From the NCBI GenBank assembly GCA_963682025.1, contig OY821521.1:172842165-172906164 (forward strand): a stretch of 64,000 nucleotides of DNA. Reading direction: 5' to 3'. The DNA comes from Cordilura impudica (taxonomy: Eukaryota; Arthropoda; Insecta; Diptera; Scathophagidae). The notes under the pieces are model-generated. The model worked only from the letters and a program-made list of their open reading frames with translations, searched no databases and had not been told where the DNA came from. This document shows positions 1,031 through 39,720 of this stretch, in pieces. Made by a program: the position numbers and the translations under genes. Positions within the stretch are counted from its first letter, which is position 1. Each line of letters begins with the position of its first letter.

Positions 1031-2059
1031 CAAAAATTGATTAGCATACGTTTGGGCTCTTATAAAATTATTTATTATAAATATTTAATTTTATTTAATT
1101 TAATATATCATTTATACATATTATACCTAAATTTTATCTTTATGCACTTCTCCTCGATATGAACTATAAATATGCCAAATTTCACACTCCACCGTGTGCG
1201 CATTTTGCTTAAAAGAGGATACAAAGATTTACCTTCACTTATTAATATATAGAAGAAGATACTTATAATATTCGGCTCCTCTAGTTCCTTTAACTTTTAA
1301 AGCAGTAGTCGGTAAAACCACTACGCGGCGTTTTTGCTCTCACACCTACATGCGCTCACATATTAAACAAAATTACATAATCAATCAGTCTCGCATGAGC
1401 ATTCGAACGAAGACGTTGATTCGACGCTTTTTGTTTGAGATGCACCGGAGAATAAATGTAAATTTTGAATGTGAATTCTTGTTTAATACAAAAATTAAAC
1501 TATTATTGAATTAGTTTTCGCATCTTAAGGAAAAAAATTTTATTCATTTAACAAGAACTTCTGAAGTTTTTAATATATTTCCATATAATTTGAGAAAATT
1601 AAATGAATATGTTAATATATTGAACACTTTACTAGTAAAGTACAGTGTGCGTTTTATTATTTTTGATCAAATAGAAAATATAATTGAATTACATAATAAT
1701 CCTTTGTTATGTAATATTGAAAAGCAAAGTGTTGATATCAAAGAAGAACTTTTAAATATGAGAAATGCTTGAATCTACCGCTTACAACTGGGCTTCATTT
1801 TCCTCGTTAAAATTTATTAAAAATAAAGCTAGAAATATCCTAACAGATTGTGGATCTTGTTCGCATAAAATGTTGTCCATATTGTATTGATATTGATTGC
1901 GTTATACAACATGAACCTTAAAATAGGTTACATAATATTTTTTTTTCATTTACGTACTTTTTCTTATTTTAACTATTAGATTCTCTAAGTACATTGAGTA
2001 AGAGAGAGATTGCATCTCACTCATACTAAGCAAAATATGATGGTATGTGTTTACACTAT
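1031..2059. other. AT-rich DNA with diverged repeat pieces
   Basis: The beginning (about 1034-1080) resembles the body of the diverged Helitron-like repeat at 25.2 kb (shared words around a GATTAGCATAC motif). A 60-codon frame at 1590-1772 (+) has ordinary-looking residues rich in Asn, Ile and Leu, but no recognisable domain and no neighbour that gives it a role. It may be a scrap of a transposon protein. No host gene is supported. Confidence 0.4.
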
Positions 2060-2125
2060 TAACAATCTCATTTCCATATCTTCTGTGTGTTCATCAAATG
2101 TTTATAATGAAATTTATGAATTTTT

Positions 2126-2856
2126 ATGAATTTTTGAAATATATGCTTTCTTCTTCTTTACCACGCACAATTTAAACAAAATTAAAAATTGCATATTAAT
2201 TACAGTAGTAATTGCAATATGTCTGAAAAAATGACGATAAATCTAACAAACAAAAAATTTCTTCGCTTCAAAGCGTCATCTCAAAATATATGTAAAGTGC
2301 ATATGTAGGTATGTACAAAAACCGTACATCACATATGACAACTCTTACGAAAACTGAGAATAGTGGAAATTAGAAGTATAAATGCAAAAAATATTCAAAA
2401 TGCAAAAATAACGATTGTTTGTTTGGACAGAGTTGTATCTTCTGAAATTAATACAAAGTAAAGCTGTATGGTACGAAAACTGAAAACTAACCACACTGCT
2501 CGTAGGCCTGACTTTAGGTGAGTGTGTTAAAGCGCTGACCAAAAAGTGCAAGTACGAGTGTATGTAAAGGTTCACGGTTCAAAACCTGACGGCCGCACTA
2601 AGTAGAAAAAATTTTCATATAGAAACAATCTATTCAATTAAAACATAACAATTATCACAATGTTCAATAAATCGCTGATGAAGGCTGAAATGCCAGAAAC
2701 CGGTCCGATTAAGAATACAGTGCAGTTATGAATTTTTGAAATATATGCTTTCTTCTTCTTTACCACGCACAATTTAAACAAAATTAAAAATTGCATATTA
2801 ATTACAGTAGTAATTGCAATATGTCTGAAAAAATGACGATAAATCTAACAAACAAG
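2126..2856 (+). mobile_element. Retrozyme-like element with hammerhead motif, copy 1
   Basis: The copy consists of one ~602-bp unit followed by about 129 bp of the next unit: the sequence starting at 2126 recurs from 2728 with near identity. It is flanked by a near-identical 15-16 bp direct repeat (2110-2125 and 2857-2872), read here as a target-site duplication with a one-base indel. No reverse transcriptase or other protein is encoded, so it must be non-autonomous. A tRNA B-box-like word (GGTTCAAAACC at 2576-2586) lies inside; whether it acts as a pol III promoter is unknown. The family resembles retrozymes or Penelope-like element repeats, which carry the same ribozyme type. A second copy is at 24261-24926. 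Confidence 0.65.
2670..2710 (+). ncRNA. Hammerhead ribozyme motif (type I)
   Basis: The order of elements fits a type I hammerhead. Stem I 5' strand AATCG (2670-2674) is followed by the core CTGATGA (2675-2681), a stem II hairpin GGC/GCC with loop TGAAAT, then GAAA (2696-2699). Next comes a self-complementary ACCGGT that makes a three-pair stem III with no loop, the cleavage-site C at 2705, and stem I 3' strand CGATT (2706-2710). Zero-loop stem III is known from Penelope-like elements and retrozymes, where cleavage is thought to work as a dimer in tandem RNA. One flaw is that the first pair of stem II is A-A, which may weaken activity. Confidence 0.65.
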
Positions 2857-2985
2857 AAATTTATTGAATTTTATATAAATATTCATACATTTTTATATAT
2901 ATATATTAAAAAAAATGGAACTAAAAAATTTGAGAGAATAAAATTTCCTAGAATTTGCCTTGTTATTTGCCCTAGTTATTAATAA

Positions 2986-3194
2986 ATTATGTAGAGCAAC
3001 AACATTAACGGAAAACCTTTGTGTAAATACCGTCCGGTATGTGTTCCATGATGCTACGTTTAATAGTGCTATATCCCGAAACAAAGTGGATAAGATGAGC
3101 ATATGTTAAAGTAGCTCAAAATGAGTCGGAAGAGTTGTAGAATCAGAAGATGCCGAGTGTGAAGAAAAGGTGACGAAGAGTTTAAAGAAAGAAA
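2986..3194. other. AT-rich spacer, nothing identified
   Basis: No gene or complete repeat is seen. The last part may belong to the degraded Tc1-like copy that becomes recognisable at about 3195. Confidence 0.3.
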
Positions 3195-3822: not shown

Positions 3823-4224
3823 AAAATTGTTTACTTAAAGCAGTGTTGCCAACTCATGTGTAACTACACATATCCTGTGTAATTTTTTTTTCATGTGTAG
3901 CCCATGTGTAATTGGCTGCATGTGCAATTCAGTGTAATTTAAAGTTTTTACGTTTTTGAGCACTACTTTTTTATTATTTTTTAACTGTTTCCAACACTTG
4001 CATGAAAAAAGTGTGTACGTCTTTTTCTATCATATAAGAATGTTCATTGTGACTAAAAATTTGGCAAACTTGCATCACAAAGAAGAATAACGGACTTATA
4101 ATACTAATATTCTTGGAAAAACTTAAAAATTTAGGTAAAAGTGAGTTGGATTTTCAATAATTGGTAAGTTATATAAAAAAATCTTTACATTCATCGTACA
4201 AATATTTTTTTTTGTTTTGTAGAT

Positions 4225-6149
4225 ATGACTGAAAAGAACGTATTCAGATTCCAAAGTGAATGGCTACATTTGACTAATTTCAAAGGATGGCTCATCAAAA
4301 TAAATGACAATGGGAAAAATGCTGCATTCTGTAAGCTATGTAATAAAAAACTGAAGTGCCATAAGCCAGTTATTTCAAGACACATGCAAACAAATTCCCA
4401 CCAAGCTGCGGCTTCTGCTATTAAATCCACAATCAACATTACTAAAGCTTTACAAAATTCTACATCAAAGAATGGAAGCATTAAGAGAGCTGAACTAAAA
4501 ATGGTTGGAACATTAACTACTAACCATTTGGCATTTAGATTAGTAGACGATCTTATTCCGGTATTAAAGTCATGTTTGCCAGACTCCGATATACTTAAAT
4601 ATGTAAACCTTCATAGAACAAAGGCCACAGCTTTGGTGAAAAATGTTTTAGGCCCAAGTTTTTCTGAGGAGCTTTATAATAAATTGCAGAAAACCGTATT
4701 TTCCATAATAATAGATGAAACAACAGATGTTAGCATAACGAAGCAGATAGCTTTTACCACAATTTGTTATGACGACGAAACATCCCGGGTACATTACTCC
4801 TTTTTTGATTTCAAAGAGAGTGGATCATCAACTGAAAAAGAAATTTTTGAGCTTTTCAAAAGCACAATTATAGAAAAAGGATTCCTTTTGAAAATCTAGT
4901 TGGATTTGCATCAGATACACCTAATGTAATGTTTGGACAGTACAATTCAGGAAGTAAGTTGTTAAAAGATGAAAAGCCAGATATCGTGTTGATAAAATGT
5001 TCATGCCACCTTATACATTTGGTAGCGTCGAAGGCTTGTCTAAAACTTCCAACATATTTAGAAGATTTACTTCGCAATCTTGGATCTTACTTTAACAAAA
5101 GTTATGTTCGACAGAAAAAACTTAAGGAGTTTCAAGAATATTTTCAAACTGGTGTTCATAAAATATTATCCCCTGCCATTACAAGATGGCGCTCATTACA
5201 TTCATGTGTTAATCGTGTTTTAGAGCAATATGAAGCTTTAAGAAGTTTTTTAAGGCTAGAAGTTTTTGAAGATCCCTCCAAGACTACTGAATCAATGCTG
5301 CAGGCATTTGATGATAAAAAAAACTAGAATCTATTTCGAATTTTTATCGTACGTCTTAGATATTTTAACTTCATTTAATACTCTTTTTCAATCAGAAAAG
5401 CCAGTATTGTATAAAATGAAATCCGAAATAATGAAAATAATGCAAACCTTTTATTCAAATTACATAAAAGTGGATGTTTTAAAATCCCAATGTGTATGGG
5501 AAATCAACCATTCAGATAAAAATATATATATCAACGAATATGATATATACATTGGTGTTGCTGCTCATGAATCTTTGACGACAATCTCTAATTCTGAAAA
5601 AAAAAAATTATAATTCAAGATTGTCGGGAGTTTTATATCGAGATAATTCGTCAAATAAAAACAAGATTTGATTATAGTGATGATATTTATACAATTGGGG
5701 ATATTGTTGATCCAAAAATTGCCCAATCTTTTCAACCTAAGTCATTGTGTTTGTTCAAAAAAAGATTTCCATCATTAAATATTGATTTGCAACAACTTGA
5801 TAATGAGTGGCGACGACATGCACTCTTTGATTTTAAAAAATTTGAGCTTCATAGTAATTTGGAGCCAGAAGACTATTGGAAAAAGGTTTTTGAATAAAAA
5901 AATTCCTTGGGAGAAAGATTATTTCCAACTTTGAAAATAGTTATTAATTTCATTTTTATTTTACCCTTTTTAAACGCTGCTGCAGAAAGAATATTTAGCA
6001 ATTTAAACAATTGTAAGACAGATTTAAGAAATAAACTGTCATCTGATACCATATCATCGATTTTATTTACTAAAGAAGGAATACATAGAAATGGTGGACC
6101 AAATTTTGAACCTACTCAAAAAATGTTAAACAAAAAATGGAAGCTTTAA
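4225..6149 (+). pseudogene. hAT transposase, degraded by stops and frameshifts
   Basis: The start codon at 4225 is followed by a BED-type zinc finger: FCKLCNKKL (two Cys) and then the His pair in ISRHMQTNSH, about residues 34-58. An RNase H-like core with IIDETTDVS follows. The reading then needs a shift near 4890 into the block holding SCHLIHLVASKA and ITRWRS, and further breaks occur near 5327, 5612 and 5896. The last piece (about 5907-6149) carries the conserved hAT C-terminal dimerisation region, FLNAAAERIFSNLNNCKTDLRNKL. It therefore has all parts of a full transposase, but at least four disabling changes. Confidence 0.88.
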
Positions 6150-8724: not shown

Positions 8725-9943
8725 TGAAAACTTGACCACCACTAATCATAAAATACTTCGATCTGCAATTGAATATAAAACGAAAGGGCCCTATAACATT
8801 ACTTTTTAATGCATGCTTAAAAAATGACAAATTTCCAGATCAGTGGAAATATTGTTGCATGACTCCTATATTCAAATCTGGTGATAAATCCAATGTTTTG
8901 AATTATAGGCCCATTGTTAAACAGTGTGTTCTGGACAAAGTATTTGATAAGATTCTGTACAATAAACTATTCAATCATGTTTTATCAAAAATTTCCATTT
9001 TTCAACATGGGTTTTCACCCGGTCGATCCACGTGTATAAATTTAGTAGTATTCACTAATCAGATTATAGTTTCTATGGAGAATAGAAAATAAGTTGATGT
9101 GGTATATACTGATTTTTCGAAGGCTTTTGATTCAGTTAATCATGCTATTTTGTTAGGAAAACTTCAACAATTTGGTATTAATGGAAATATGTTGCAGTTT
9201 CTTAAAAGTTTTCTTACGAATAGGAAATTAATAGTTAAAATTAGTTGATGCTTTTCGGAAAATGTAATTAATTCATATTCTGGTATTCCTCAAGGAACGC
9301 ATTTAGGTCCATTATTATTTTTAATTTTCATAAATGACCTACCTGACTGTTTGCAATTTTGTAAACCATTATTATTTGCCGATGATTCGAAATTATTTGC
9401 TGATATTACAAGTATATCACATTCAGTTATGCTTCAAAAAGATTTGATATCACTAAAAGAGTGGTGTGATTTAAACAGACTTGTTTTAAATCTATAATAT
9501 TAATAGGCTAGGCGATTTCTTGTGATCGATGTTTTGTTCTACCGTTTTATCCCGATTTTGACCAAACGTATATTATTTGAAAGGTATTTCTTTTTAGCCG
9601 TTTTGCAGATTTACAGATTTTTACATTTTTTCCTTTATTTTGAGTAAATTGCATTTAAAGTTGCTACTACCACATACATAAAATTATACATATGCTATGT
9701 GTGTTTTACTAAATTTGTTAATGTGTTTGTTAACGAGTTTGTTATCTTCGTTCACAATAATAATAAACCATAAAAGTTTTGGTTTGTGAAATGGCTATGT
9801 TGAAAAATAAAGCTGCCTAGAAATTGCACTCGAATTTTGAGCGCTGGAATCTGCTAGTATTAATTATTGTACAAACATTATTATATTCTTATAGTCTGTA
9901 AGATGTAAATCAGTAGACTAAATAAATAAATAAATAAAAACAG
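8725..9943 (+). pseudogene. LINE copy A, reverse transcriptase remnant (CR1/Jockey-type)
   Basis: The translation (about 8769-9490) gives a continuous reverse transcriptase palm: an FPDQWK region, SGDKSNVLNYRPI, QHGFSPGRST, then VVYTDFSKAFDSVNH. SGIPQGTHLGPLLF and the catalytic LLFADDSKLF (near 9375-9400) follow. In-frame stops occur after ENRK (about 9090) and near 9247. The open frame is cut at 9490 by a Helitron, and the LINE resumes at 9858, ending in (TAAA)n at about 9943. The 5' end is truncated, as is usual for LINEs. Confidence 0.88.
9491..9857 (+). mobile_element. Non-autonomous Helitron copy (inside LINE A)
   Basis: The 367-bp element starts TCTATAATATTAATAGG and ends CTAG, inserted between A (9490) and T (9858), the standard Helitron rule. 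Just before the 3' end is a short hairpin of the CTCGAATTTCGAG type (here slightly degraded) followed about 12 bases later by CTAG. It encodes nothing. It is a reference copy for the family, which occurs more than a dozen times in this window. Confidence 0.88.
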
Positions 9944-10483: not shown

Positions 10484-12481
10484 TTATTGTTGTTGAGCGT
10501 GTACTTCTTGTCCCCCGCCCTGTGCGCAAGTGTTGCAGCGACGTAAAAGTGTGCTATGTTCTCCGCAAACAGCGTTGCCGCAGCCGAAGCAGTATGCCCG
10601 CGTTTTTCGCTGCCGCCCGTACTCAGAACGGCAAAGGCGACATGACGGTCTACTTGACCTAGCTGCAAACGACGGTGCATTGCCTTCCATCGGTCTTGGT
10701 AATAACTGAAATGAAAGGAAAAATAAAAAAGAAATAAATATATATTCTATTCTTGAATTTGAAGATGTTTTTCTTACCCTGACATCGAATGCTTCCATCG
10801 CATTGCGTATCCTTGGATATGAGGTTATATGGTTGTTCAGGGCACGTTCTTCAATATTTGGTATGGCCAATTGTTTCGTTAGCAGTAACAAGAACGACCG
10901 CCGTCTGTCACTCCTTTTTATAGGCTTCATTTCGTTGTAAATCGTAAAAGCAGTCAATGCAGCGACATCCAGCATATTATAGAACATAGCCAACGGCCAT
11001 CGTTGTGTTGCTCTTTTGCAGCTGTAAGTGCCTAGCATTTGATCCATGGTATCAACGCCGCATTTGGTGGCGTTGTAATCTAATATGGCATAGGGCTTCC
11101 GCTTCTCGGTTTGCTCGTCAACGAGGCAGGTGTAGTGCATTGTGGAGACCACGTTCACCACTTTATTTTTTTTCGGCACGTATGAGCATAACGCTATATC
11201 CCCTTCGTTGAACTTAAATAATGTACTATTGATGGTGCGCTTCGGGTTCTTCTTGAACTCCTGTGGAATGAATGTTTTGTTGTAGCGCACTGTACCAACA
11301 TATGCGGTCTTCCTCCTCAACAAAATACGCGCCAAGTCAAGAGTGGTAAAGAAATTATCCACGTATATAGTACGGCCAGCATCTAAATATTTTTCCACAA
11401 GATCCAGCACTACGTTCTGCCCTTGGTTTATCTCCCGTTGTTGGTTTGGCAGTTTTCCAGAATATATCATTCCCTTCACAGGATAATAACTCTGTGAGTC
11501 GCATAACCACCATACTTTCAAACCATACTTAGCTGGATTTTACGGAATGTATTGTGTGAAGCGGGTCCGGCCTCTGTAAGGGAACAACTGCTCATCAACT
11601 GTTAGTGCTTCATGAGGAGTGTAAGCTGCTGCCAAGTTATGTTGCAACATTTGCCAAATATCGTCAATAGCCGCAGTTTTGCTGTTGATGAGTCGCTGTT
11701 GTCGAGTATTTCCATTGTCGAATCGAATAAATTGCTTTATACACATGAAGCGATCGTACGACAACGCAGCTTTGTATATTGGGCAACGCGTCGCGCCCCA
11801 TAATTTCATAGCTGGTTCATGGTTTGATCCTGTGAGTCCAGCATACAAAAGAATAGCTACAAAGGCGTCAAATTCTTTCACTGTCACTGGCTTCCACTCC
11901 TTTTTCTTCGTGGGATTCCCCAAATTCCATGCAGCTGTAACCTCCCTGCCTTTACGATTTGTTTCACGTAGCACTAACTGTATTATTTCCTCTGTCATGA
12001 TTGAACGCATTATTGTATAGGGGTCGTGTATATTTCCTGTTGGTCCTGGTTTCTTTCTTGTGAAGTCGACCACGTTATGATTACGAGTGCGTGATGTTGG
12101 TGGTGCTTTTTTACTCCATTGGGTGCCATCTTTACCCATATAGTAACTTTCATTCGTCTCCTGTCCATCATTTTCTTCCTCTTCATCATCGTCGTCATCA
12201 GTATCTTCATTTAGCTCGACGTATCCTTCAGTTTCGGCATCTGACTCTTCAGCAGGTTCGTATGTGCGATCTTCAGCATCCTCAACTTCATAATTATCAA
12301 TTGCAGCAATATCAATTTCTTCATCCATGTCTTCGTCCATAAAATCAGCAAATCTACTATCAGCTGCACGCCTTTCATCCGCAGTCATTTGCTGGTAACG
12401 TGTACTACGGCGTACAACAATTTCAGCAACGTCCAAATTACTTGCATCTGCCATATTTATATTTTTGTTTCTATCACACAC
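10484..12481 (-). pseudogene. piggyBac transposase, one premature stop, probable small intron
   Basis: The frame runs from ATG at 12481 to a stop at 10484 with a single in-frame TAA near 11540 (YIP-stop-NPAKYGLK). The N-terminus is acidic (EDTDDDDDEEEEND). The three catalytic aspartates of the family are all present: TVDEQLFPYRGR, IYVDNFFTT and CGVDTMDQM. The C-terminus has the Cys-rich domain (CRLCRSEYGRQ... CFGCGNAVCGEH). A 72-nt stretch at 10706-10777 has GTAAG and TTTCAG borders and encodes an odd hydrophobic insert, so it is probably an in-frame intron. Apart from the nonsense codon this is a recent copy. Confidence 0.88.
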
Positions 12482-12560
12482 GATTTTACTCTTCGCTGTC
12501 TAAACTTTGACTGATTTGGTGTACGAAACTACAACTTATTTTATACTCTTTCGTACGTCT

Positions 12561-13412: not shown

Positions 13413-13872
13413 TAACGGGTGATTTTTTAAGAGCTTGATAACTTTTTTTAAAAAAAAAACGCATAAAATTTGCAAAATCTCATCGGTTCTTTATTTGAAA
13501 CGTTAGATTGGTCCATGACATTTACTTTTTGAAGATAATTTCATTTAAATGTTGACCGCGGCTGCGTCTTACGTGGTCCATTCGGAAAGTCCAATTTTGG
13601 GCAACTTTTTCGAGCATTTCGGCCGGAATAGCCCGAATTTCTTCGGAAATGTTGTCTTCCAAAGCTGGAATAGTTGCTGGCTTATTTCTGTAGACTTTAG
13701 ACTTGACGTAGCCCCACAAAAAATAGTCTAAAGGTGTCAAATCGCATGATCTTGGTGGCCAACTTACCGGTCCATTTCTTGAGATGAATTGTTCTCCGAA
13801 GTTTTCCCTCAAAATGGCCATAGAATCGCGAGCTGTGTGGCATGTAGCGCCATCCACAAATCTGTACCTTTA
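13413..13872 (-). pseudogene. Mariner-like transposase C-terminal remnant
   Basis: The minus-strand frame (about 13870 to 13522) begins at the second catalytic Asp, VDGATCHTA. It continues with NGPVSWPPRSCDLTPLDYFLWG, carrying the third catalytic Asp, and reads to its natural stop. The flank at 13413-13520, with GGGTGATTTTTTAAGAGC, is the 3' terminal region, preceded by a TA in the LINE. The 5' two-thirds of the transposase is absent, cut at 13872. Confidence 0.87.
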
Positions 13873-13894
13873 AAAACAACAAAATACAATTACA

Positions 13895-16260
13895 AAAATA
13901 AACCCTGGTTCAATCAACAGATTAAGGATAAAATCTGTGAAAGGGATAAAGCTTTTAAAAGTTGGAAACTGTATAAAACAGATAATTTATATGACGAATA
14001 TTCCAAAGCTAGAAAACAAGTAAATAAAATGATAAAAACTGCTAAATCTGCATACTACTCTAGCCTATTTATTTCTGCTGCACACTCTAAAAAAACGTGG
14101 AAACTCATACGAGAAATTGGTGTCGGCAAATGTAAGGAAATTGTCAATTCTGACATAAATGTTGATTCGCTTAACGAATCTTTTACAAATATCCCTGACA
14201 TCCCCATAAACGATGGATATTATACCCGCAATACTGATATTAGTTCAACTTTATCGGAAAATGCTTTTTGTTTTCAATGCGTAAACCAACTGGAAGTACT
14301 TTCCACATGCCAAGCTGTGAAATCTAATGCTGTTGGTTCTGATAACATACATCCCAGATTCTTAAAGGAAATTATCCCTCAACTGCTACCTCAAATTACC
14401 CATATTTTTAACACTATTATCACAAAAAGTGTATTTCCTCAAAGTTGGAAAAATGCTAAAATTTTACCTATTCCTAAATCAAATAAAGAATATCGTCCCA
14501 TTGCTATCCTACCATACTTGTCTAAAGTGCTTGAAAGGTTATTGCATCAGCAAATTGGAAAACATGTCAAGAATATGGGCCTACTCTCAGACAGACAATC
14601 AGGCTTTCGTCCTAAACATAGCTGCATAACTGCACTCATTGATGTGTCTGAAGATATTCGTGGGTATATTGATAGTGGTAACATTGCATTTCTAGTGCTC
14701 TTAGATCATTCGAAGGAATTTGATACTGTGTATCATGAAATACTCTGCATGAAGCTTAGAACTTTTTTTGGTTTCTCTCCTTCCGCAACTCGTCTTATAT
14801 CGTCTTATTTAGAAAATCGACAACAATATGTTAACGCCAATAATATAATATCAAATGTGCTTCCAGTAAAAAGGGCGTTCTGCAAGGTTCGATTCTAGGA
14901 CCACTTCTTTTCACTATATAAGTATATAAATGATTTGCCTATGTAACTTTCGTATTGTAAAGTTCATATGTATGCTGATGATCTCCAACTTTATGTTTGT
15001 AGTCGTTTCGATGAACTAAATAACTGTGTTGCAAACCTAAATGTGGATCTTAATCGAATTCACTTATGGGCTCTGGCAAATGGGCTATGTCTCAATCCTT
15101 CAAAGTCTAAATGCATCATTATTACTCGAAAATCAGTGCCTTCCCTTGCTATACCAGCTATTATGCTTAACCGTCAAATTATTGAAATTACACAAGAAAC
15201 CAAAAATCTTGGAATTATTTTCAATAAAACTCTCACCTGGTCTGATCATATAAATGTCGCTTCGGGAAAAACGTTTTCAATGCTTCGATCACTGTGGTAA
15301 GCTCAACATCTTACACCAGTCCATGTACGAGTTCTACTTGCAAAAACCTATCTAATTCCAAATTTGTTGTACGGATGCGAACTATTTGCTAGCTGTGATT
15401 CTATTAGCTGTAGGAAATTAACAACTACGTTCAATTCTATATTAAGGATACGTATACAATTTGAAAAGATCATCCCACATAACACCGTATGCACGAAAAC
15501 TTTACGATGTGAATTTTTGCGATCTCTTGAAGATACGATCATTGTTACTGATGCATAAGATTATATTTACACGTGAGCCTACATATCTGTTTAATCGGAT
15601 ATCCTTAACTAATTCAAGAAGAAATAATTCTATAATTCAAATAAGGCATAAAAGTTCTACATACTATGTATACGTCTTTGGAACTTGCTACCACCAACAT
15701 TACAATATTTAAACAACGCAGGACATTTTAGGAAACAAGTTTTCCAATTTGAATATATGTAAAATAATTTTTGTTATCTTATCTATAATATTAATAGGCT
15801 AGCCGATTTCTTGTGACCGATGTTTTGTTCTACCATTTTATCCCGATTTTGACCAAACGTATATTATTTGAAAGGTATTTCTTTTTAGCCGTTTTGCAGA
15901 TTTACAGATTTTTAAATTTTTTCCTTTATTTTGAGTAAATTGCATTTAAAGTTGCTACTAACACATACATAAAATTATACATATGCTATGTGTGTTTTAT
16001 TAAATTTGTTAATGTGTTCGTTATCTTCATTCACAATAATAATAAGCCATAAAAGTGTTGGTTTGTGAATTGGCTAAGTTGAAAAATAAAGCTGCCTAGA
16101 AATTGCACTCGAATTTAGAGCGCTGGAATCTGCTAGTTTTTATAAAAATTAAAACTATGTTATATTTTCATTAAATACTATATCACATTATACCGATCCT
16201 GTACTTTAATTATAAGACTCTTAGTCTTGTTGTACAGGAAACAAAATAAATAAATAAAAT
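13895..16260 (+). pseudogene. LINE copy C, most complete (Jockey-type), broken
   Basis: The region 13905-14898 encodes the linker and first half of the reverse transcriptase (IPIPKSNKEYRPIA, RQSGFRPKHSC, LLDHSKEFDTVYHEIL). A frameshift near 14880 precedes the QGSILGPLLF block, and stops lie near 14925-14950. YADD, the catalytic motif, is at 14971-14982, followed by thumb and C-terminal pieces to about 15720. The 3' end is split by a Helitron (15782-16136) and finishes in (TAAA)n at about 16260. The endonuclease and ORF1 are missing. It is the same family as copy B. Confidence 0.88.
15782..16136 (+). mobile_element. Non-autonomous Helitron copy (inside LINE C)
   Basis: It has the same TCTATAATATTAATAGG start and CTAG end as the 9491 copy, inserted between A and T in the 3' untranslated part of LINE C. 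The two copies are closely similar over their whole length. Confidence 0.87.
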
Positions 16261-18010: not shown

Positions 18011-18136
18011 CAAACAAACATCAATGAACTGATTATATCTAGAAATAGAGATCATAAAAACCTATTTTTTGTAGAAATTTTTCACAGAGCAGTTTAAAAC
18101 ATTCACTAACAAACTTTTTTGTTGCATTATTTGCAG

Positions 18137-19041
18137 GGATTCAAACCGCTTCAGTGGAACTAGTAAGCAATCAGCAACATGAAATTATATTGAAATGTCA
18201 TGTAGAAGCTTCATCAGGCGATGGTCTCCTCGAAATTGAATGGTTCCGAAATAGCGAAAAACTAAGCACATTGAAAAATATTGAATTACAAGAAAATCGC
18301 CTGCTAATACACAATCCCAACAGACAAGATGGTGGACTATATCGTTGCATAGCCTCAAACGCAGCTGGTCGTGTCATCAGTCGTAAAGGCTATATACTTA
18401 AGTGGTCTCCTGCAAAATCTAATAATATAGAGGGCAACCGTAATTGTATACCACGTTTAAAGAAGAACTACATAATGCCAGAGGATATGAAAAATATGTT
18501 TTTGTGTCGCGGCAAACGAGGTGACTACGCTAATGCTGAGCTAAGTGAAGATAAATTACCACCAATGACTGATGTGACAATAACAAAAGGTCCCATGAAA
18601 CAAGTAATTGTCAAGGAAAGTGATACGGCCGAAATGACATGCGCCTATACAAGCACCCAACAACAAACAGGCGGTATACTGAAATGGCGAAAAGATGGCA
18701 AAATATTTAGACAAATTGATATTGATGAACTTTCGTCGATACAACGTACGGTTGAATCCAATAAGGATCCTATGTTGCGTGAAGATGCTCGTGTCTCAAT
18801 AGCCAAAGAAAATGGCTCATTAATATTTGCCAGCGTTATTGCCAGCGATGCCGGCCAATATGTTTGCCAAATTGTTGTAGAGGGTTATCGTCCCACAACA
18901 TCAGAGCCAGGTGAATTGCAAGTCATTGAACAATTGAAATTCATGCCACAACCTACTTCGAAGAATTTGGAATTAGGTTCGATAGGAAAAGTACATTGTA
19001 AAGCACAGGGCACACCAGCACCACAAGTGAAATGGCTTAAG
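18137..19041 (+). CDS. otk: otk exon: two Ig domains and start of a third
   Basis: The acceptor TTTGCAG at 18136 follows a T-rich tract. The first two bases complete a codon split with an exon not seen here. The first Ig domain has its Cys pair in LKCHVEA and YRCIASN with the intervening WFR. The second has MTCAYTS and YVCQIVV with LKWRKDG. The third begins at VHCKAQGTPAPQVKWLK and is split by the intron. The exon ends in phase 0 at a consensus donor GTAAGT (19042). There is no ATG start: the frame is open to the acceptor. Confidence 0.92.
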
Positions 19042-22000
19042 GTAAGTAAAAGTTTTAGTTTGCATATTTTTTATTTATTTATTTATTTTTTTTTTTGAAG
19101 TTAAGTAATGCTACTTATAAATTTTTCTATGGTTTTGCTAATATAAATAACAGTGGTTTGATAGCAAATGTTGGTTATTAAAAATGATAAATTATTTATT
19201 ATATTTTATTAGTTAGTATAAAAATGTTGGTTATTAAAAATGCTAAATTATTTAACTCAAAATATCCTCATTATATTAGTTAGTATAAAAATGATATCTG
19301 CAAAGATTTTATCGCATAACATGGGTCAGCTTCCATAAATTCTATGAGGTAGAAAAGAAATTCAGTTTAATATCTCTTTTAAGCTTTAAAATCCTTATTG
19401 TTTTGTAAATATAAACACTAATATCCGCATTATTTTATATACAAAACTTAGACATCCGCAATAAATTCGTTATGAAATGAAAATTCCTGCATAAATTACA
19501 ACCACCAAACAATACCACTCGCTTTATTTTGATACAGAAATATAGTAATCTATACAAACATAAGTTGGAACCATTGATATCTGCAGTAATTTTAAGATAA
19601 ATGCAGGTCCAAATCTATGAGAACTGCATTGATTTCACTACTGAACTTTAAAGATTGAATAAATTGAATAAAAAAAAAATTGTGATCACAGGGGAAATGT
19701 GTAAACATCTGGTAATTTAAGATTTTTAATGGCACCTTTTTAAAATCAAATAGAAAACGTCATCTATGTATCACTTATATCAATCAACTGCTAATATAAA
19801 AATATTTAATATTATTTATTATTTCAACCGGTCAATTTTTAATTTTTCTTTTTTTTCATTTTTCATTTTAAATTTTTTATTTTTCACTTTCCATTTTCCA
19901 TTTTTCGTTGTGCGTTTTTAATTTTTCCTTTTTTTTCATTTTTTATTTTTAATTTTTAGTTTTTCATTTCTTTTTTCCATTTTTTATTTCTCATTTTTTA
20001 TATTTCATTTTTAATTTTTCGTTTTTCATTTTTCATTTTTGTTTTTATTTTTCATTTTCCATTTTTCGTTGTTCGTTTTTCATTTTTCATTTTTTATTTT
20101 CCATTTTTTATATTTAGTTTTTAGTTTTTCATTTTTATTTTCCATTTTTTATTTTTCATTTTTCATTTTTCATTTTTTGTATTTCATTTTTCATTTTTCG
20201 TTTTCGTTTTTCATATTTTATTTTTCATTTTTTATTTTTCATTTTTAATTTTTAATTTTTAATTTTTAATTTTTAATTTTTTAATTTACATTTTTCATTT
20301 TTTATTTTTCATTTTTTATTTTTCATTTTTTTTTAATTTTTTTAATTTTTAATTTTTTGTTTTTCAATTTTCATTTTTTATTTTTCGTTTTTCATTTTTT
20401 ATTTTTCATTTTTTATTTTTTATTTTCCATTTTTCATTTTTAATTTTGATTTTTAATTTTTTTTAATTTTAAATTTTTTGTTTTTCATTTTTTATTTTCC
20501 ATTTCTTATTTCTAATTTTTAATTTTTCATTTTTATTTTCCATTTTTTATTTTTCATTTTTCATTTCTCATTTTTTTGTTTTTCTTTTTTCGTTTTTCAT
20601 TTTTTATTTTGCACTTTTCATTTTTCATTTTTAATTTTTTAATTTACATTTTTCATTTTATATTTTTTTAATTTTTTATTTATTATTTTTCATTTCTTAT
20701 TTTTTATTTTTCATTTTTTATTTTTCATTTTTTATTTTTAATTTTTTATTTTTAATATATTATTTTTAATTTTTTATTTTTAATTTTTTTATTTTTAATT
20801 TATTATTTGTCATTTTTAATTTTTCATTATTAATTTTTCGTTTTTCATTTTTTTTTTATTTTTCATTTTCCATATTTCGTTCTTCGTTTTTCATTTTTCA
20901 TTTTTTATTTTCCATTTTTTATTTTTAATTATTAATTTTTAATTTTTTATTTTTCATTTTTCATTTCTCATTTTTTGTTTTTGTTTTATCTTTTTTCTTT
21001 TTTCTTTTTCCGTTTTTCATTTTTTATTTTACACTTTTCATTTTTCATTTTTAATTTTTTAATTTACATTTTTAATGAAAATGACTTTTTGAGTTCTAAA
21101 TGTAAGATACGATTCAATCCACAAAATAATAGATTCATGTATGCCAGTGAGTCTTGGTTTGAGTTGTAAAATATTATGATCCACCCTATCAAAAGCTTTT
21201 CTAAAGTCAGTATATATCACATCCGTCTGCTCATCACGGTCGAAACCTTTGAAAACAAGACATATGCTTGCTTGAACACAATAATAAACATTGAATTAAG
21301 CTATAATTATAATTAACATATTGTTTATTTAAATATAAATAATGATATCCGCACTAATTTTCGGGAAAACCATTGACATCCGCATTGTTTGTTAATGAGT
21401 TTGTTATCTTCATTCACAATAATAATAAACCAACAAAATTTTGGTTTGTGAATTGGCTAAGTTGAGAAATAAAGTTGCCTAGAAATTGCTCTCGAATTTC
21501 GAGCGCTGGAATCTGCTAGTTTCATATTGAATCAATATAATGATTTTCGCACTAATTTGAGAACAAGTCATTGGCATCCGCATTGGTTTTTAATTAAGAG
21601 AGTTACATTCAAAACATTACGAAAAAGAAACATTTATATCTGCATAAGTTTTAACAAATAACAGTAACATCCGCATTAATAAAATAATAAAATTAAAATT
21701 AAATTATGTTATAATTAAATAAAAATAATAAATTATATAAAAATAAGTATGTCCGAACTAATCTCGGACAAAAACCATTGACATCCGCTTTGATGGTAAA
21801 CTAAAAAAAATACATCTAGAATGATATCAAAAAGAAATACTGATATCTGCATTAGTTTTAGAAAAACACAGTAAGATCCGCTTCAACTAAAATAGTAAAT
21901 ATTTAGTTACTCTATAATTGCAATAAAAATAATTTTAAATTAAATAACAATGAATACATCCGCACTCATTTTAGTAAAAACCATTGACAACCTCATTGAT

Positions 22001-25000
22001 TCTATCCTCAAAAAATATTTATATCAGTAACATCCGATTTAACATCATAAAAACTATTGATATCTGCTTGAACCCATATAGTTAACATTGAATTAAGCTA
22101 TATTTGCAATATAAATAATCTATAATATTAATAGGCTAGGCGATTTCTTGTTACCGATATTTTGTTCTACCGTTTTATCCAGATTTTGACTAAACGTATA
22201 TTATTTGAAAGGTATTTCTTTTTAGCTGTTCACCAGATTTACAGATTTTTAAATTTTTTCCTTTATTTTGATTAAATTGCATTTAAAGTTGCTACTAACA
22301 CACACATAACATTACGCATATGCTATGTGTGTGTTTATTAAATTTGTTAATGTGTTTGTTAATGAGTTTGTTATCTTCATTCACAATAATAATTAACCAA
22401 AAAATGTTGGTTTGTGAATTGGCTAAGTTTAGAAATAAAGTTGCATAGAAATTGCACTCGATTTTCGAGCACTGCTAGTTTCATATTAAATCAAAATAAT
22501 GATTCCCGCACTAATTTTAGAACAAATCGTTGGCATCCGCATTGGTTTGTAACTAACGAAGTTACATTCAAAGCAATTGGAAAAAGAAACATTTATATAA
22601 GTTTTAACAAATAACAGTAACATCCGCATTAATTACATAACATAATTAAATTAAATTATGCTATAATTAAATAAAAATAATAAATTATATAAAAATAAAT
22701 ATGTCCGAACTAATCTCGGAAAAACCATTGACATCGGCTTTGATGGTAAACTAAAAAAAAATACATCTAGAATGATATCAAAAAGAAATACTGATATCTG
22801 CCGTTTTTTAGTAAATATCAGAACATTCGGGTTAATATTATAAAAACTATTGATACTTGTGTGGGCTGAAATAGTTAACAGTGAACGTTGCTATAATTAC
22901 ATTAAATATAATGAAAAAAAAAAAAAAAAAATAAGCGCCCCGGTAGGTGAGTAGGTAGCGTGCTCGCCTATCATGCGGGTACGTGGGTTCGATTCCCACC
23001 AGAAGCTTTGGTCTGTCACTGCAAAAAACCAGCCAAATGGTCTTTGTCAACCGGCTTATCCCTGCACCCAAATTAGTATACAAATTTACTTTGTATTGTA
23101 ATTAATATAAAATAAAATAAAAAATAAAAAAAATAATGCAAAAATAAGTATATCCGCACTAAGTTGAATAAAAACCATAGACATCCGTATTGACTCGTAA
23201 CTAAAAAAATATATCTGAAATAATATATATAAAAAAACATTGATATCTGCATTAGGTTTAATAAATATCAGTAACGTCCGCATTAACCCCTGGCCTTATG
23301 ATTTAATTTAAAAGAAACATGAGCGTGGAGACTATTTAATTTTAATGCAACCCTGTGCGGGCATTATCAGTGTTAATATATTTATAAAAATAATGGTTGT
23401 TTGTTAAGTATAATACATTTTCTCCTTCCAGTTTGAAGCATTCAAATCTGTGGCGGGCATAGCCCGTCAATGTCGAATTTGGCACAGAAAATGTTTGCGG
23501 GCGACATTCGACATTTCCACTTAAGAGGTTAATATTATAAAAACCTTTGACATTTGCTTGAACTAAAATAGTAAACATTGAAATACGCTTTAATAACAGT
23601 ACAAATAATTTGAAATAAAATATACAATATTAATAGGCCAGACGATTTCTTGTGACTGATATAAATATTTAGTTACAAACCGATTTTGACCAAACATACT
23701 TTATTTGAAAGTATTTCTTTTTAGCTGTCCACCATATTTACAGATTTTTTGTTTTTTAAAACACATACTGTGTTTGTATTTATTATAAATATCAAAAGCC
23801 CTGTGTTTAATTGTGAATTGGATAAAATTGATTAGCATTCATTTAGGCTCCTTTAGAATTATTTATTAACAAACCCATTTATATATCTTCGGTGTGTTCA
23901 ACAAATATTTATAACGAGATTTAAAGAATTTTATTTAAAAAGTGTTGAATTGTGAGTTAGCTAGGTTCTTATAAAATTATTTAATAAATGAAAAAATAAA
24001 ATTTCCTAGAATTTGCACTTGAATTTCGATGGCTGGGCTTTACTCGTAAAAATAAATATCTCCGCACTGATTTCCATATATTTAAGGACATCCGCTTTAG
24101 TTTAACAAGAAAGTTAAACTTTGACTACGCTTTAATTTAAACCAGCACTCAAAGTTCGAGTGCAAATTTTAGGAAATTTTATTTTATCATTTAATAAAGA
24201 CCCTAAAGGTATGCTAATCAATTATAACCAATTCACAAATCAACACAAAAACCAAACTCAGAAACCGGTCCGATTAAGAGTACAGTGCAATTATGAATTT
24301 TTGAAATATATGCTTTCTTCTTCTTTACCACGCACCATTTAAACAAAATTATAATTTGCAGTAATTGCAATATGTCTGAAAAATGACTAAGTCTAACAAA
24401 CAAAAAATTTCTTCGCTTCAAAAAGCGTCATCTCAAATATATGTAAAAAGTGCATATGTAGGTATATACAAAACCGTACATCACATATGACAACTCTTTC
24501 GAAAACTGAGAATAGTGGAAATTAGAAGTATAAATGCAAAAAATATTCAAAATTCAAAAATAACGATTGTTTGTTTGGACAGAATTGTATCTTCTGAAAT
24601 TAATACAAAGTAAAGCTGTATGGTACGAAAACTGAATCTAACCACACTGCTCGTAGGCCTGACTTTAGGTGAGTGTATTAAAGCGCTGACCAAAAAGTGC
24701 AAGTACGAGTGTATGTGAAGGTTCATGGTTCAAAACCTCACGGCCGCCCTAAGTAGAAAAAATTTTCATATAGAAACAATCTATTCAATTAAAACATAAC
24801 AATTATCACAATGTTCAATAAATCGCTGATGAAGGCTGAAATGCCAGAAACCGGTCCGATTAAGAATACAGTGCAGTTATGAATTTTTTAAATATATGCT
24901 TTCTTCTTCTTTAACACGCACCATTTAAACTCATTTTTATTACAAACACATTAACAAATTTAATAAACACACACATAGCATTGTATAACTTTATGTATGT

Positions 25001-28000
25001 GTTAGTAGAAACTTTAAATGCAATTTACTCAAAATAAAGGAAAAAAAATTAAAAATCTGTAAATCTGCAAATTGGCTAAAAAGAAATACCTTTCAAATAA
25101 TATACGTTTGGTCAAAATCGAGATTAAACGGTAGAACATAACATCAGTCACAAGAAATCGGCTAGCCTATTAATATTATATATATCAAAAGCCCTGTGTT
25201 GTATTATGAGTAGGCTAAAATTGATTAGCATACCTTTAGGCTCCTTTAAAATTATTTATTAACGAGCCCATTTATATATCTTCTGTGTGTTCAACAAATA
25301 TTTATAACGAGATTTAAAGAATTTTATTTAAAAAGTGTTGAATTGTGAATTAGCTAGGTGCTTATAAAATTATTTATTAAATGAAAAAATAAAATTTCCT
25401 AGAATTTGCACTCGAATTTCCAGGGCTGGGCTCTGCTCGTAAAAATAAATATTTCCGCACTGATTACCACATAAATAACATCCGCTTTAGTTTCAACAAA
25501 AAAATTATTAAGGCATCTTTTAAATTTAAAAAAATATTTGTATTTAACAAGAAAGTTAAACTTTGACTACGCTTTAATTTAAACTAGCAGATTCCAGAAC
25601 TCGAAGTTCGAGGGCAAATTCTAGGAAATTTTATTTTTTCATTTTATAAATAGCCTAAAGGTATGCTTCACAATTCAACTCATTTTAAATGAAGAAAACC
25701 AACTCAACAAATTAACACAAACACATTAACAATTTTAATAAACACACACATAGCATCACATAATTTTATGTATGCGTTAGTAGCAACTTTACACAATCAT
25801 AACTCCAAAAAGATATTCTAGATGATGAAAATCTGTATATCTGGGTAACAGCTAAAAAGAAATACCTTTCAAATGATAAATTTTTTGTGAAAATCGGGGT
25901 AAAACTGTGAAACTTACATCGGTCACAAGAAATCGCCTAGCCTATTACAATTATAGATATCCAGAAATTTTTATATCCGCATTTCTGTTATCCCATAATT
26001 TTCTTGTTAGAAAACTTCTAAAAACCTTTTTGTAACTCAATACCACTGTCCCATAAAAAGAACTACTTAAGGGTAGTTTTAAACCAAAAAATACAAATCA
26101 AACAAATTTACTTTCATTTGAGCAATGTACTTAAAGATAAATTGCTAAAAAGGGCTTAGTGGAGAGCTTACTACTTATGTAAATGTATATACGAGTGCGA
26201 GTAATATAGTTGAAGAATGACTATGGAATTTGTTGTTAAACAAATAAAGTCAATGGCCAAATGCTAAGAGCGTGGCAAATAATTTTTTTTGACGAAAGTA
26301 AAAGCAATTAAAACACTCGAATAAAATTATTAAGAAGATTTAAAAAGAAAGAATTGATTTTTATTAAATCCTAGAAAATTTTTTTAGTTTAAGTTTTATA
26401 CTTTTCAACCCCTCTTTTAATCTACGTCCCTCTAATTCTATAATGGCCAAAGAAGATTTGCTATCAACTTTAACTTGTTCTTTTTTTTATTATCGTTGCT
26501 AAAACTTTCTGGTACTGTTCTTTTTATGGGCTTTTATTCATTTCTTTTATTCTTTTTGTTTTATTTACAGGATTTCAATGATGACATACCAGATTCATTG
26601 GACGATATTAATGGTACTTTAACATTCAGAAATGTTTCAGCAGAACATCGTGGCAACTACACTTGTGTGGCTTCGAATGCTCAGGGACAAATAAATGCCA
26701 CCGTTAGCATAAATGTTGTAGTGGCTCCCCGTTTTTTGGTTGCACCCGAAGGTCCCATTGAAAGTGCCGAATCTGGTGTGGCTATTATGCATTGCCAGGC
26801 TACTGGTGATCCTAAACCCACCATACAATGGGATAAAGATTTAGAGTATTTGAGTGAAAATAATACAGATCGTCAACGTTTCTTCTTCTTGGAAAATGGT
26901 ACTTTGGAAATACGTAATGTGCAGGCTGAAGATGAGGGCAGATATGGCTGTACAATTGGCAATAGTGCTGGCTTAAAGAGAGAAGAAGTACGGTTTATTG
27001 TGAAAAGTAAGTATTGAAATAAATTAACAAAAATATCTAAGAATTTAAATTCTAACAGCCGTATTCATAAAAATTAAAGTGTACTTCAACAAATTTTGTA
27101 TGAAAAACATACATTAAAGTCTACTTGAAGTACACTTTAATTTTTATGAATACGGCTGTAAGTATTTAAAATATTGTTTTTCTCATAATGCGTTTACATC
27201 TATGCAAAATCTAGTATATACGAGATTTCGAGCAAAATCTAGCTCATTTTTACTAGATTTCCCATACAAAACAAAATCTAGTTCGTTACTAGATTTTAGC
27301 AAAATCTCACAAAATCTTGTCAAACTTGGGCACTACCAAATGATACTACTGTGTTTTTTTTAATATTGTAGTACAAAATTACAACGCAGTGACTGAAAAA
27401 TTTACATTAAAAAAAAACAAAAGCAAAAAAGTTGAATAAAAAGGAAATAAAATATTAATTATTAATAAAAATGACGAATCTATAGTAAAAAAAATATTTA
27501 GTAATTGAAAGTTATTATTTTGTATACTTATATGTATGTGCACATTCCGATCTGCTTTTTAATAATTGTGTAAAATGCATTTTTTTTTTGTTGTTCAAAC
27601 AATACATTTAACAAATGCTAAAGTTTTTTTTTTTCGCAAAACTTCTAGTTCAGCTTGTGCTTTTTTCATTCTTGATGCATAATATAATAATAAATTCTGT
27701 TCCTTTTTAGAATTTTCCATATTTCCATTTTCCTATTGTTTTTTTATTTTTGGTATTTCTAGTTTATATGTTTTAGTTTAATCAACTGTTTATTGTTGTG
27801 GAAACAAAATCTCACAAAATGTCAAAAAAAAGTTAGATGTAAACGGTAGAGATTTTGAAATGGATTTCAAATAAAATCTACTAGATTTTCCTTAGATGTA
27901 AACGCAATATTAAAAATAGTACTTAAAATTAAAAATATGTAGTACCAATTCTTAAATACAGGATTAGGATTTTTTTTAGAATGAGTTCTACTTTAAAATA

Positions 28001-31000
28001 AGTACGGAGAAATATACTCAAAATTAAAGTAAAAAAGAAGCAATTGGAAAAATAGTACAATTTTGAAAAAGAAAGATTAAAAAAGTACCATTTTGTGAAA
28101 CAGTAACATTTTGAGAAATAGTGGCAGTTTGAATAATAGTACAATTTTCACAAATGGGACATTAAAAAAAAACTAATTCGAAAACTAGCATAAAGTTGAC
28201 AAAAATTAACATTTCGAAAAAGAGTATTATCTTATAGACCGGCTATACGATACCCTATCTCTTAGGTCCAACTAATTAGATATAGAAAATAAGCACAAAC
28301 CAAATTTGAGTGGCATTGTTATTAATTTTATTGCCTTCGAATAAAAAAAAGTTTATATCGGTTGCTGTATTTATATGGGGATTAGGTCGGAAAATGGACC
28401 GATCCTGACTATATACAAACCGAACTTGAGAAAAATTTTTGAAACTTTTTTGTTTTTTGATAGGGAATCAGCTTTGACTATGTGGGGGCTATGAATAATA
28501 ATTGTCCTATATGATTTATTTTAATGATTAATGGGTACTAGCAGATTCCAGCGCTCGAAATTCGAGTGCAATTTCTAGGCAGCTTTATCTTTCAACTTAG
28601 CCAATTCACAAACCAACACTTTTATGGTTTATAATTATTGCGAATGAAGGTAACAAACTCATTAACAAACACATTAAAAAATTTAATAAAACACACATAG
28701 CATACATATGTGTTAGTAGCAACTTTAAATGCAATTTACTCTAAATAAAGGAAAAAATTTAAAAATCTGTAAATCTGCAAAACGGCTAAAAAGAAATACC
28801 TTTAAAATAATACACGTTTGGTCAAAATCGGGATAAAACGGTAGAACAAAACATCGGTCACAAGTAATCGCCTAGCGTATTGTTATTATAGATAATAAAC
28901 ATACCATACAAACCCATTTTTACAAAGATCTATATGATAATTTTGATATTATGGCAATTTAAATCGATCTCATATGGGTCATTTGTATGGGCATTAAGTC
29001 TGAACATAAACCGATTTTTACCAATATCAATAGCGTTGTTCATATGGCCGACAGAAGCTTATATACTTAATTTGCTTCAAATATTTATATTCATATATGC
29101 GAACTGTAGTTTGGTTACAAGATTTTCATGCACACACAGACGTACGGTCGGACATCGCGAAATCGACTCAGGATTCGATGGTTATAATGAAAGATGGGTC
29201 TAGGTCAAATATTTTTGATAGTTACAAACATCAGCATAAGGTCATTATAGGTATTGGTATAAATACGAAAATTAGTACTAGTTTAAAAATACTATTTCGA
29301 AAAATAGTAAAAATAACTAGCAGAGCTCAGCCCTCGAAATTCGAGTGCAGATTCTAGTGCAAGTTTTCGAATGCAAGTTTTTTTCTATATAAATAAAAAA
29401 AAATTATGAATATTTAAATAAAATTCATTAAATTGTGAATTTTTAAATAAAAAGCATTAAATTTCAATATAAATATTGGTTGAGCATATAGGAGATATAT
29501 CTGTGGTCACAAGTGATAACCGCTTAAGTCGACTTAAGAACGATTTGAATTGTGTATGCTATCATATTCTACTAAAAATGCTTTACATTTATATGAAATC
29601 CTCATTTCTCTAACCCTGTTTTTTAAAAATCATTAATGAAAACATATTGACATAAGTCGTAATGAAGCCCAATTACATTTATATTAAAAGTTATTTTTCT
29701 CGAAAGCATGATTTTCGACTTAGGCGGTTAATGCTTGTGACCACAGATATAACTGGATTTGTTAACAAATAATTTTATAAGAGCCTAATCAATTTTAGCC
29801 AATTCACAATTCAACGCAAATTTAATAAACACACACATAGCGTTGTATAGTTTTTTATTTGAAGCTTAAATATGTGTTTTATGTATGCGTTAGTAGCAAC
29901 TTTAAATGAATTTTACTCCAAAAAAATGTTCCAGATGGTGCAAATCTGTAAATATGATGGACAGCTGCAAAGAAATACCTTTAAAATAGTATAATTTTTG
30001 TCAAAATTGGTTGATATCTAAAACCGTAAAATCGGTCACAGGAAATCGCCTTAGCTATTGATATTATAGATACCGCTTTGACAAATACTTAGTATTATTT
30101 CGAAAAATAGTACTATTTCCAAAAATAGTACTATTTCCAAAAATCGTACTATTTTAAAAAATAATACAATTTTGCAAAATAGCACCAAAAATAGTACTAT
30201 TTCCAAAAATAGTACTACTATAGTACTATTTCCAAAAATAGTACTACTATAGTACTATTTCCAAAAATAGTACTATTTTAAAAAATAATACAATTTTGCA
30301 AAATAGCACCATTTCGAAAAAGCATTTTAAAAAGTAGTATCTTTTTCCAAAATAATACCATTATGAAAAATAGTAATTTTTTGAAATATGAAATCAAATT
30401 TTCTTGTTCTTCCATTTCCAACGATTTTAAATGATGTAAGATTGATTGTTGAGACACTCCTGATGTAAATGCAAGTTGTTCTCTCATTTGGCAAAAATCT
30501 TGAGCCAATATTGCCTCCAATTCCGCGTCTTCGTACTTTTTTGCCTTTCGCTATGGTCTTTGTCTTCCTCAATCACTCGCGCTAGAATCTCTGACCTAAA
30601 GCAGCCTCTCACATATCTCTACAAGCAATCGATTCACCTAAGCTGGAAATTGCTTTAAATTGAGAAAGTAATTCGAAAGTTCCCTTAAATTATGCTTATT
30701 CGGCGCACGTTTTAATATAAGTTACTGGCGGCTTTATCTTTTATCTCAAGGAGGAAACTTATTTTTACACCTAATGTGCTTTAAAAATTACTATTTTGAA
30801 AACTATTAATATTATGAAATAGCACCTTTTCGAAAAATAATACCCCTTTTGAAAAACTACTTTTTTGGAAAAGTACCATTTTGTCACAGAAAACTGGAAA
30901 GTGCACAGTAGAATTAACACATTTCCATTAAACTAAAAATTTTCCAAATATATTTTTTTAGGTACTTTAAAAAGTAGAATTTCTTATTCAAAAGTTAACA

Positions 31001-39100: not shown

Positions 39101-39720
39101 TTTAAAAAAATTTACTTATTTAAGAAAAAGTACATTTTAATAAAAGGTACTTTTTAAAGAAATTGTTTTTTTTAAGAAAAAGTAGTTTTTATGAAAAGTT
39201 AACTTTTTTAAGTAAATGTACTCTTTTAAATAAAGATAAATCTTTAGGTAAGAAAAGGTAAGAAGTGGTACTATTATAAGGAAATTTGTTTTATTTAAAA
39301 AATAAACTTTTAAAAAAATGCATTTATTTAAGAAAAAGTACATTTTAATAAAAGGTACTTTTTAAAGAAAAAGTGTTTTTTTTAAAGAAAAGGTAGTTAT
39401 TATGAAAAGGTAATTTTTCAAGTAAATGTACTTTTTTTAGGGAAAATGTACTTTTTAGAAAAAGTTACATTTTTAGGGAAGGGTACTTTTTTTAGGAAAA
39501 AATACTTTTTAGGAAGAGGTACTTTTTTAAGTAAAGGTACTCTTTTAAATAAAGGTAATTGGATAGGTGACAAAAGGTACTTTTTAAGAAAACGTACCTT
39601 TTCTTAGAAAAATAAGAATTTAGGAAAAGGTACTTTTTAAGAAAAGATACTTTTTTTAAAAAAGGTAAAAAAGTATACTTTTTATTTTTTTTTTTAGAAA
39701 AGGTACTTTTTAATTCATAT
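36110..39720 (+). repeat. GGTAC minisatellite array 1 (~3.6 kb)
   Basis: Degenerate tandem repeat with a unit of about 17-20 bp of the type TTTAAGAAAAGGTACTTTT. Units differ by many substitutions and indels. Longer blocks recur: the segment near 37140-37900 resembles 38330-39060, and an AAGTGTTTTTTTTAAGAAAAG-like phrase occurs repeatedly. The unit contains the self-complementary AAAGTACTTT core. All open frames here are repeat artefacts. Confidence 0.93.

Follow-up and report, generated by a model that had tools for sequence, protein, structure and literature searches.

Retrozyme-like repeats with type I hammerhead ribozymes occur in many invertebrates, insects included, according to the available part of PMC7229834 (Cervera and de la Pena 2020), in which flies are not named among the hosts. 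The animal non-LTR retrozymes described there encode no protein, have a low GC content and no LTR, and are built from a head-to-tail unit; their repeats measure 150–450 bp and are found as dimers to multimers, their circles are of about 170–400 nt, and their target duplications exceed 4 bp. In the same part of that paper the circles are proposed as templates, and Penelope-like elements are a strong, as yet unproved, candidate for the mover.

Autonomous Penelope-like elements have an ORF with a reverse transcriptase and a GIY-YIG domain. As described in the accessible sections of PMC11167929, PAc, the Penelope-like element of Anolis, has a type I hammerhead of the minimal form, located close to the junction of its repeats, and partial-tandem, permuted copies with a 3′ tail past the ribozyme cut, inserted at AT-rich targets. 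Its reverse transcription starts internally, 111–118 nt into the ORF, and its ribozyme cuts 26 nt into the ORF, which by subtraction places the start 85–92 nt past the cut. The start lies in an AC-rich stem-loop; the template is uncut tandem RNA, the insertion sites are nicks in AT-rich DNA, and this internal initiation accounts for the tails of the genomic copies. Minimal hammerheads with a palindromic helix III without a proper loop are reported in Penelope-like elements, and may cut as dimers (PMC7761336, PMC6155905, parts available).

Other hammerhead repeats can be likened to the present element by description, again from the available parts of the papers. The schistosome Smalpha/Sjalpha and W-elements (PMC8490949, PMC6155905) are also small, non-autonomous and SINE- or satellite-like, but they are flatworm families, and the Pol III features are incomplete in the element reported here. 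The pDo500 repeat of Dolichopoda cave crickets (PMC2837043) is an insect hammerhead repeat with single and double forms, but it is a satellite family and its helix III is paired, unlike that of the present element. The dipteran hammerheads of Rhagoletis, Musca and Hermetia (PMC7936874) are of type III with long helices I and II, whereas the motif described below is of type I. A fly family of about 600 bp and of this form was not found in the literature searched by title and start of abstract, a search to which subscription papers and repeat databases were mostly external.

The element analysed in this study is represented by two copies in the window, that is, the whole stretch of DNA analysed (64 kb). 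Like the animal retrozymes it is protein-less and low in GC, has no LTR, and combines a type I hammerhead motif with a head-to-tail unit. The target duplication of copy 1, of 16–19 bp, is longer than 4 bp, and that of copy 2 is of 2–6 bp. The unit is larger (586–602 bp), the two copies seen contain 1.1–1.2 units instead of forming dimers to multimers, and helix III is a bare palindrome, unlike that of the retrozymes in the available part of PMC7229834. Since unit size and copy form lie outside the described animal class, the element is a variant of the animal retrozymes, with a larger unit and dispersed 1.1–1.2-mers, rather than a plain member of them, and it is not a new kind of element. With PAc it has in common the minimal hammerhead near the repeat junction, the partial-tandem permuted copies, the tail past the ribozyme cut and the AT-rich targets, but it is devoid of an ORF and of both domains of the autonomous elements; the first two of these features and the tail are expected of a non-autonomous Penelope-like derivative. 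We consider it moderately probable that the element is a non-autonomous, protein-less, retrozyme-like retroelement with a type I hammerhead, derived from circular or oligomeric RNA and most likely inserted by a Penelope-like enzyme. A first-pass annotation had read copy 1 as a tandem, permuted, ribozyme-bearing retroelement, an interpretation that is partly supported by the data presented below, its overall observation (two copies, more than one unit, a hammerhead motif) being reproduced by BLAST, a motif descriptor and repeat comparison.

Copies of the Element

BLAST of the element against the 64-kb window (E up to 1e-3) showed two copies of the family, both on the + strand. Their limits, determined by BLAST, repeat comparison and the empty sites, were as follows:

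2126–2855, +: copy 1, 730 bp, corresponding to 1.2 turns of a 602-bp unit
2126–2253, +: first lap of the doubled part of copy 1, 128 bp, identical to 2728–2855
2728–2855, +: second lap of the doubled part of copy 1, identical to 2126–2253, period 602
24260 to 24926 or 24930, +: copy 2, corresponding to 1.1 turns of a 586-bp unit

No further copies and no array of this unit were detected in the window by the same search. An extra short match at 48225 corresponded to the flank of copy 2 and proved to be its empty site. The recurrence of 128 identical bp at a distance of 602 bp is in agreement with the earlier description of copy 1 as slightly longer than one 602-bp unit; the end assigned to it at 2856 lies one base inside the target duplication, and the element ends at 2855. 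Its start is ambiguous, 2124–2126 or 2128 being equally possible, because target and unit have letters in common there. Copy 2, previously delimited as 24261–24926, starts at 24260 and ends either at 24926, as proposed, or at 24930, since the letters AAAC could be unit or target. Both copies thus exceed one unit, with 1.2 and 1.1 turns, and have permuted ends, as had been claimed.

The protein-less character of the element was confirmed: no ORF of at least 110 aa overlaps either copy, and the + strand of the unit contains no stop-to-stop frame of at least 45 aa. On the − strand, stop-to-stop frames of up to 77 aa were found. The GC content was 32% for both the 602-bp and the 586-bp units.

Alignment of copies 1 and 2 revealed 17 substitutions in 634 columns. 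The two laps of copy 2 differ at 4 of 85 positions and, when compared with copy 1, each shows two private changes, none being common to both save one that separates the copies. These private changes tally with the 17/634 between copies on the assumption of a young copy 1 and of two laps that did not yet differ when inserted. Judged from these differences, the laps of copy 2 look identical at the time of insertion, as would be the case after two turns of one circle or with an oligomer of highly uniform units. The longest change-free run between the copies (140 of 660 columns, with 25 changes) spans the ribozyme motif, but with random placement of the changes its p value was 0.056, and for this reason no selection is claimed.

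Insertion Sites

The sequences flanking both copies were compared with the rest of the window, and the following features were identified:

2109–2125, +: left target duplication of copy 1, GAAATTTATGAATTTTT
2856–2872, +: right target duplication of copy 1, GAAATTTATTGAATTTT
23855–24030, +: host repeat, empty site of copy 1 (BLAST)
25248–25420, +: host repeat, empty site of copy 1 (BLAST)
29330–29520, −: host repeat, empty site of copy 1 (BLAST)
48120–48460, +: host repeat, empty site of copy 2 (joined flanks aligned with 48194–48321 through the join, 131 columns at 91%)

On either side of copy 1 the target reads GAAATTTAT(T)GAATTTT, which gives a duplication of 16–19 bp with two one-base indels. 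The 15–16 bp duplication proposed by the first-pass annotation therefore stands, in this slightly extended form, for copy 1 and fails for copy 2, in which the duplication is of 2–6 bp (AAACTC, of which AAAC is perhaps the unit's own). The targets of both copies are AT-rich. The left and right flanks of copy 1 are parts of one interspersed host repeat; the individual BLAST matches spanning the join are short, with 77 bp at 83% extending 7–8 bases beyond the join in 23855–24030 and 25248–25420, and about 70 bp at 79% in 29330–29520. Each copy is cleanly inserted in a host repeat of which uninterrupted versions are present. An interspersed repeat of about 240 bp adjoins copy 2 (24931–25180) and is found on both strands at about ten further places.

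These sites bear on the proposal that scattered pieces of a satellite array or of a DNA transposon were moved as DNA, for which a head-to-tail unit would be expected in the case of a satellite fragment, and satellite-like arrays are indeed abundant in the window. The 16–19 bp target duplication of copy 1, the clean empty sites, the lack of terminal inverted repeats (8 and 3 inverted pairs were found in the two copy regions, none joining the ends) and the lack of an array of this unit in the window render such an origin very improbable. Both the DNA transposon and the satellite readings were set aside on the basis of the duplications, the empty sites and the absence of inverted ends. In the two copies the ends differ and terminal inverted repeats are missing, the two points on which the earlier interpretation had been made to depend.

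Hammerhead Motif

The motif positions are listed below, the outer helix having been identified by eye:

2670–2710, +: type I hammerhead motif of copy 1, predicted cut after 2705
24821–24861, +: type I hammerhead motif of copy 2, predicted cut after 24856
24260–24275, +: 3′ portion of a hammerhead motif with which copy 2 opens, its start lying inside the ribozyme motif
2661–2665 (TGTTC) with 2713–2717 (GAATA), +: possible outer helix I, with one G-T and a 4/2-nt internal loop

Each copy contains one complete motif with the letters AATCG-CTGATGA-A-GGC-TGAAAT-GCC-A-GAA-ACCGGT-C/CGATT. In both, the letters could be fitted one by one to the type I core, with putative helices I–III present, so that the hammerhead noted in the first-pass annotation has its core letters in place. 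Helix I would be formed by AATCG/CGATT in both motifs, and helix III by the palindrome ACCGGT, without a loop (2699–2704 in copy 1). With a loopless palindrome of this kind, the easiest route to an active ribozyme would be the pairing of two units. In the letter rule of the type I core, positions 10.1 and 11.1 are usually G-C; here they are A and A. The motifs of copies 1 and 2 are identical and consequently provide no covariation. A 17-codon frame starting from the ATG inside the CTGATGA of the core was noticed by eye.

A descriptor written by hand for this form, allowing any 10.1/11.1 pair and a palindromic or looped helix III, gave two matches in the window, both in this family, and two in 150 first-order Markov windows. 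Rfam searches showed no hammerhead match in the whole window at the gathering score, and no hammerhead or tRNA match in 2000–3000 and 2470–2730 at E up to 10; the sole weak rows at the latter threshold, ArcZ and ES036, were taken as chance. The exact ribozyme pattern had no matches in the prokaryotic and viral contig collections, where absence is little informative. Shuffled sequences folded about as well as a single motif (z −0.45), neither one motif nor two together were predicted to adopt the active hammerhead form, and the outer helix I (2661–2665/2713–2717) was absent from the predicted fold. As complete circles, the 602-nt unit folded moderately better (z −2.6) and the 586-nt unit weakly better (z −1.4) than 60 shuffles each.

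Promoter-like Sequences

Sequences resembling the B box of tRNA-type Pol III promoters are present in both copies:

2576–2586, +: B-box-like GGTTCAAAACC of copy 1, perfect, with TTTT (2612–2615) between the box and the ribozyme
24727–24737, +: B-box-like GGTTCAAAACC of copy 2

Three B boxes were found in the window against 0.28 expected per simulated window; two are those of the copies, and the third, at 22986, is inside a tRNA-Asp call by ARAGORN (22937–23007, anticodon atc), which Rfam at the gathering score did not confirm. The tRNA-like stretch of the element did not fold clearly better than shuffles (z −1.17), and its exact pattern had no matches in prokaryotic genome contigs, in which absence is again little informative.

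The perfect B box in both copies would suit a SINE-like element whose Pol III promoter is of the tRNA type and whose hammerhead is incidental or secondary. Hammerhead elements resembling SINEs are known from schistosomes, the Sjalpha elements being called SINE-like retroposons with a hammerhead in the title of the corresponding paper. Yet all six matches to the A-box pattern in the window lie outside the element, no tRNA match was obtained with Rfam, TTTT at 2612–2615 and TTTTT at 2131–2135 would terminate Pol III transcription short of a complete turn, and the copies are permuted and longer than one unit, in contrast to the fixed 5′ end of a SINE. This explanation appears improbable, and a tRNA-derived SINE origin was set aside because of the TTTT, the missing A box and the lack of an Rfam match. 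With no match to the A-box pattern and with TTTT before the ribozyme, a Pol III transcript of the whole unit is unlikely, and the B box of the element may be a relic or due to chance.

Ends of the Copies and Proposed Mode of Insertion

Relative to the predicted cut, copy 1 starts at about +23 and copy 2 at −11; each then traverses a complete unit, and the 3′ end falls at +150 in copy 1 and at +70 or +74 in copy 2. The start points in the unit differ, as previously stated, and so do the 3′ ends. Each copy crosses an uncut predicted site, from which an oligomeric or circular template, uncut at that point, is inferred. Both 5′ ends (−11 and +23) are near the ribozyme, as if copying had halted there, although with two copies this is only suggestive. 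The last 20 nt of the two copies contain 70% and 80% A+C, the unit mean being 56%; the copy 2 end does not stand out in this respect, since 51% of the 20-mers of the unit reach 60%. The region after the cut folded no better than shuffles (z −0.04, 0.53 and 0.43), and no stem-loop was supported there. Neither 3′ end, CTAACAAACAA or CACCATTTAAAC, has a poly-A or simple-repeat tail.

A retrozyme-type circular RNA might instead have been copied by an ordinary LINE enzyme. Pieces of LINE-type reverse transcriptase are present in the window, the 16–19 bp duplication of copy 1 is of the LINE type, and LINEs or PLEs are named as possible movers of animal retrozymes in the available part of PMC7229834. 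Against a LINE enzyme stand the lack of any poly-A or simple-repeat tail, the different unit positions at which the copies end and the duplication of at most 6 bases in copy 2, and we regard its participation as unlikely. The tails of 70–74 and 150 nt, the A+C-rich ends and the AT-rich targets lead us to favour a Penelope-like enzyme acting in trans.

According to the mechanism that we propose, RNA with head-to-tail units would be produced in the form of an oligomeric transcript or of circles that close once the ribozyme has cut. A reverse transcriptase, most likely Penelope-like, would be supplied in trans from elsewhere in the genome, and copying would set in where an AT-rich target is nicked, the first template position lying downstream of the ribozyme. 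After passing one full unit it would halt near the next ribozyme, and the resulting insertions would comprise 1.1–1.2 units, have permuted ends and be flanked by target duplications that vary in length.

Some observations count against the Penelope-like enzyme: the copies are two only and their 3′ ends fall at different positions, whereas for PAc two preferred sites next to each other are given in the available part of its description. Among the ten ORFs scanned, none of them small, there was no gene for a Penelope-like reverse transcriptase or GIY-YIG protein, and the reverse transcriptase pieces among them matched RVT_1 and are LINE-like by eye. The folds of the single motif and of the region after the cut, no better than shuffles, the predicted fold of one or two motifs, which is not the active one, and the A-A at 10.1/11.1 are likewise unfavourable to a hammerhead retroelement of this origin.

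As a tentative and rather doubtful extension, the family could join the two groups of hammerhead elements, being an oversized retrozyme-type circular RNA inserted by a Penelope-like enzyme with an internal start past the ribozyme. If so, each copy of such a family would preserve a trace both of one passage round the circle and of where copying began, and the family would be a natural link between the retrozymes and their suspected mover. Ends permuted past and near the ribozyme would make the question of the mover testable from genome sequence alone, by asking whether the ends of the copies pile up where those of an autonomous Penelope-like element do in the same genome, and the probable setting is an insect order with good genetics.

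Host Gene and Other Features of the Window

The ORFs 18058–19098 and 26436–27017 matched successive parts (98–398 and 397–541) of chain 6s9f, their best solved-structure match, which we take to be the Drosophila off-track (otk) protein. This match is in keeping with a fly, probably but not certainly the source of the DNA. Kinase pieces follow at 32086 and 34333, and the gene was delimited from the solved otk chain and the kinase family matches as:

18058–34806, +: off-track (otk) exons

Copy 2 lies between the first two otk ORFs and is therefore in an intron, in sense orientation; its ribozyme, if active, would be part of the otk pre-mRNA.

Remains of several mobile elements were also observed. 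A piggyBac-type transposase (PF13843) is encoded at 10484–12499 (−) by two adjacent ORFs in one frame. RVT_1 pieces, LINE-like by eye, are located at 8736–9092 and 13783–15300 (+), the ORFs at 8736 and 14947 scoring below the curated cut-off. The ORF at 13522–13869 (−), which runs across the beginning of the LINE ORF of the opposite strand, resembles by eye the end of a mariner transposase, with no Pfam match, and ORFs in 4177–5613 (+) are hAT-like by eye, the two that were scanned (4177 and 4851) giving no Pfam match. Satellite arrays of seven-base units (ATTTTTC, AAAAATT, TAAAAAT) occupy 19835–21073, 42649–43287 and 44055–45005, and long arrays of 18-base units extend over 36570–39667 and 57728–63611, the latter two being, by eye, reverse complements of each other.
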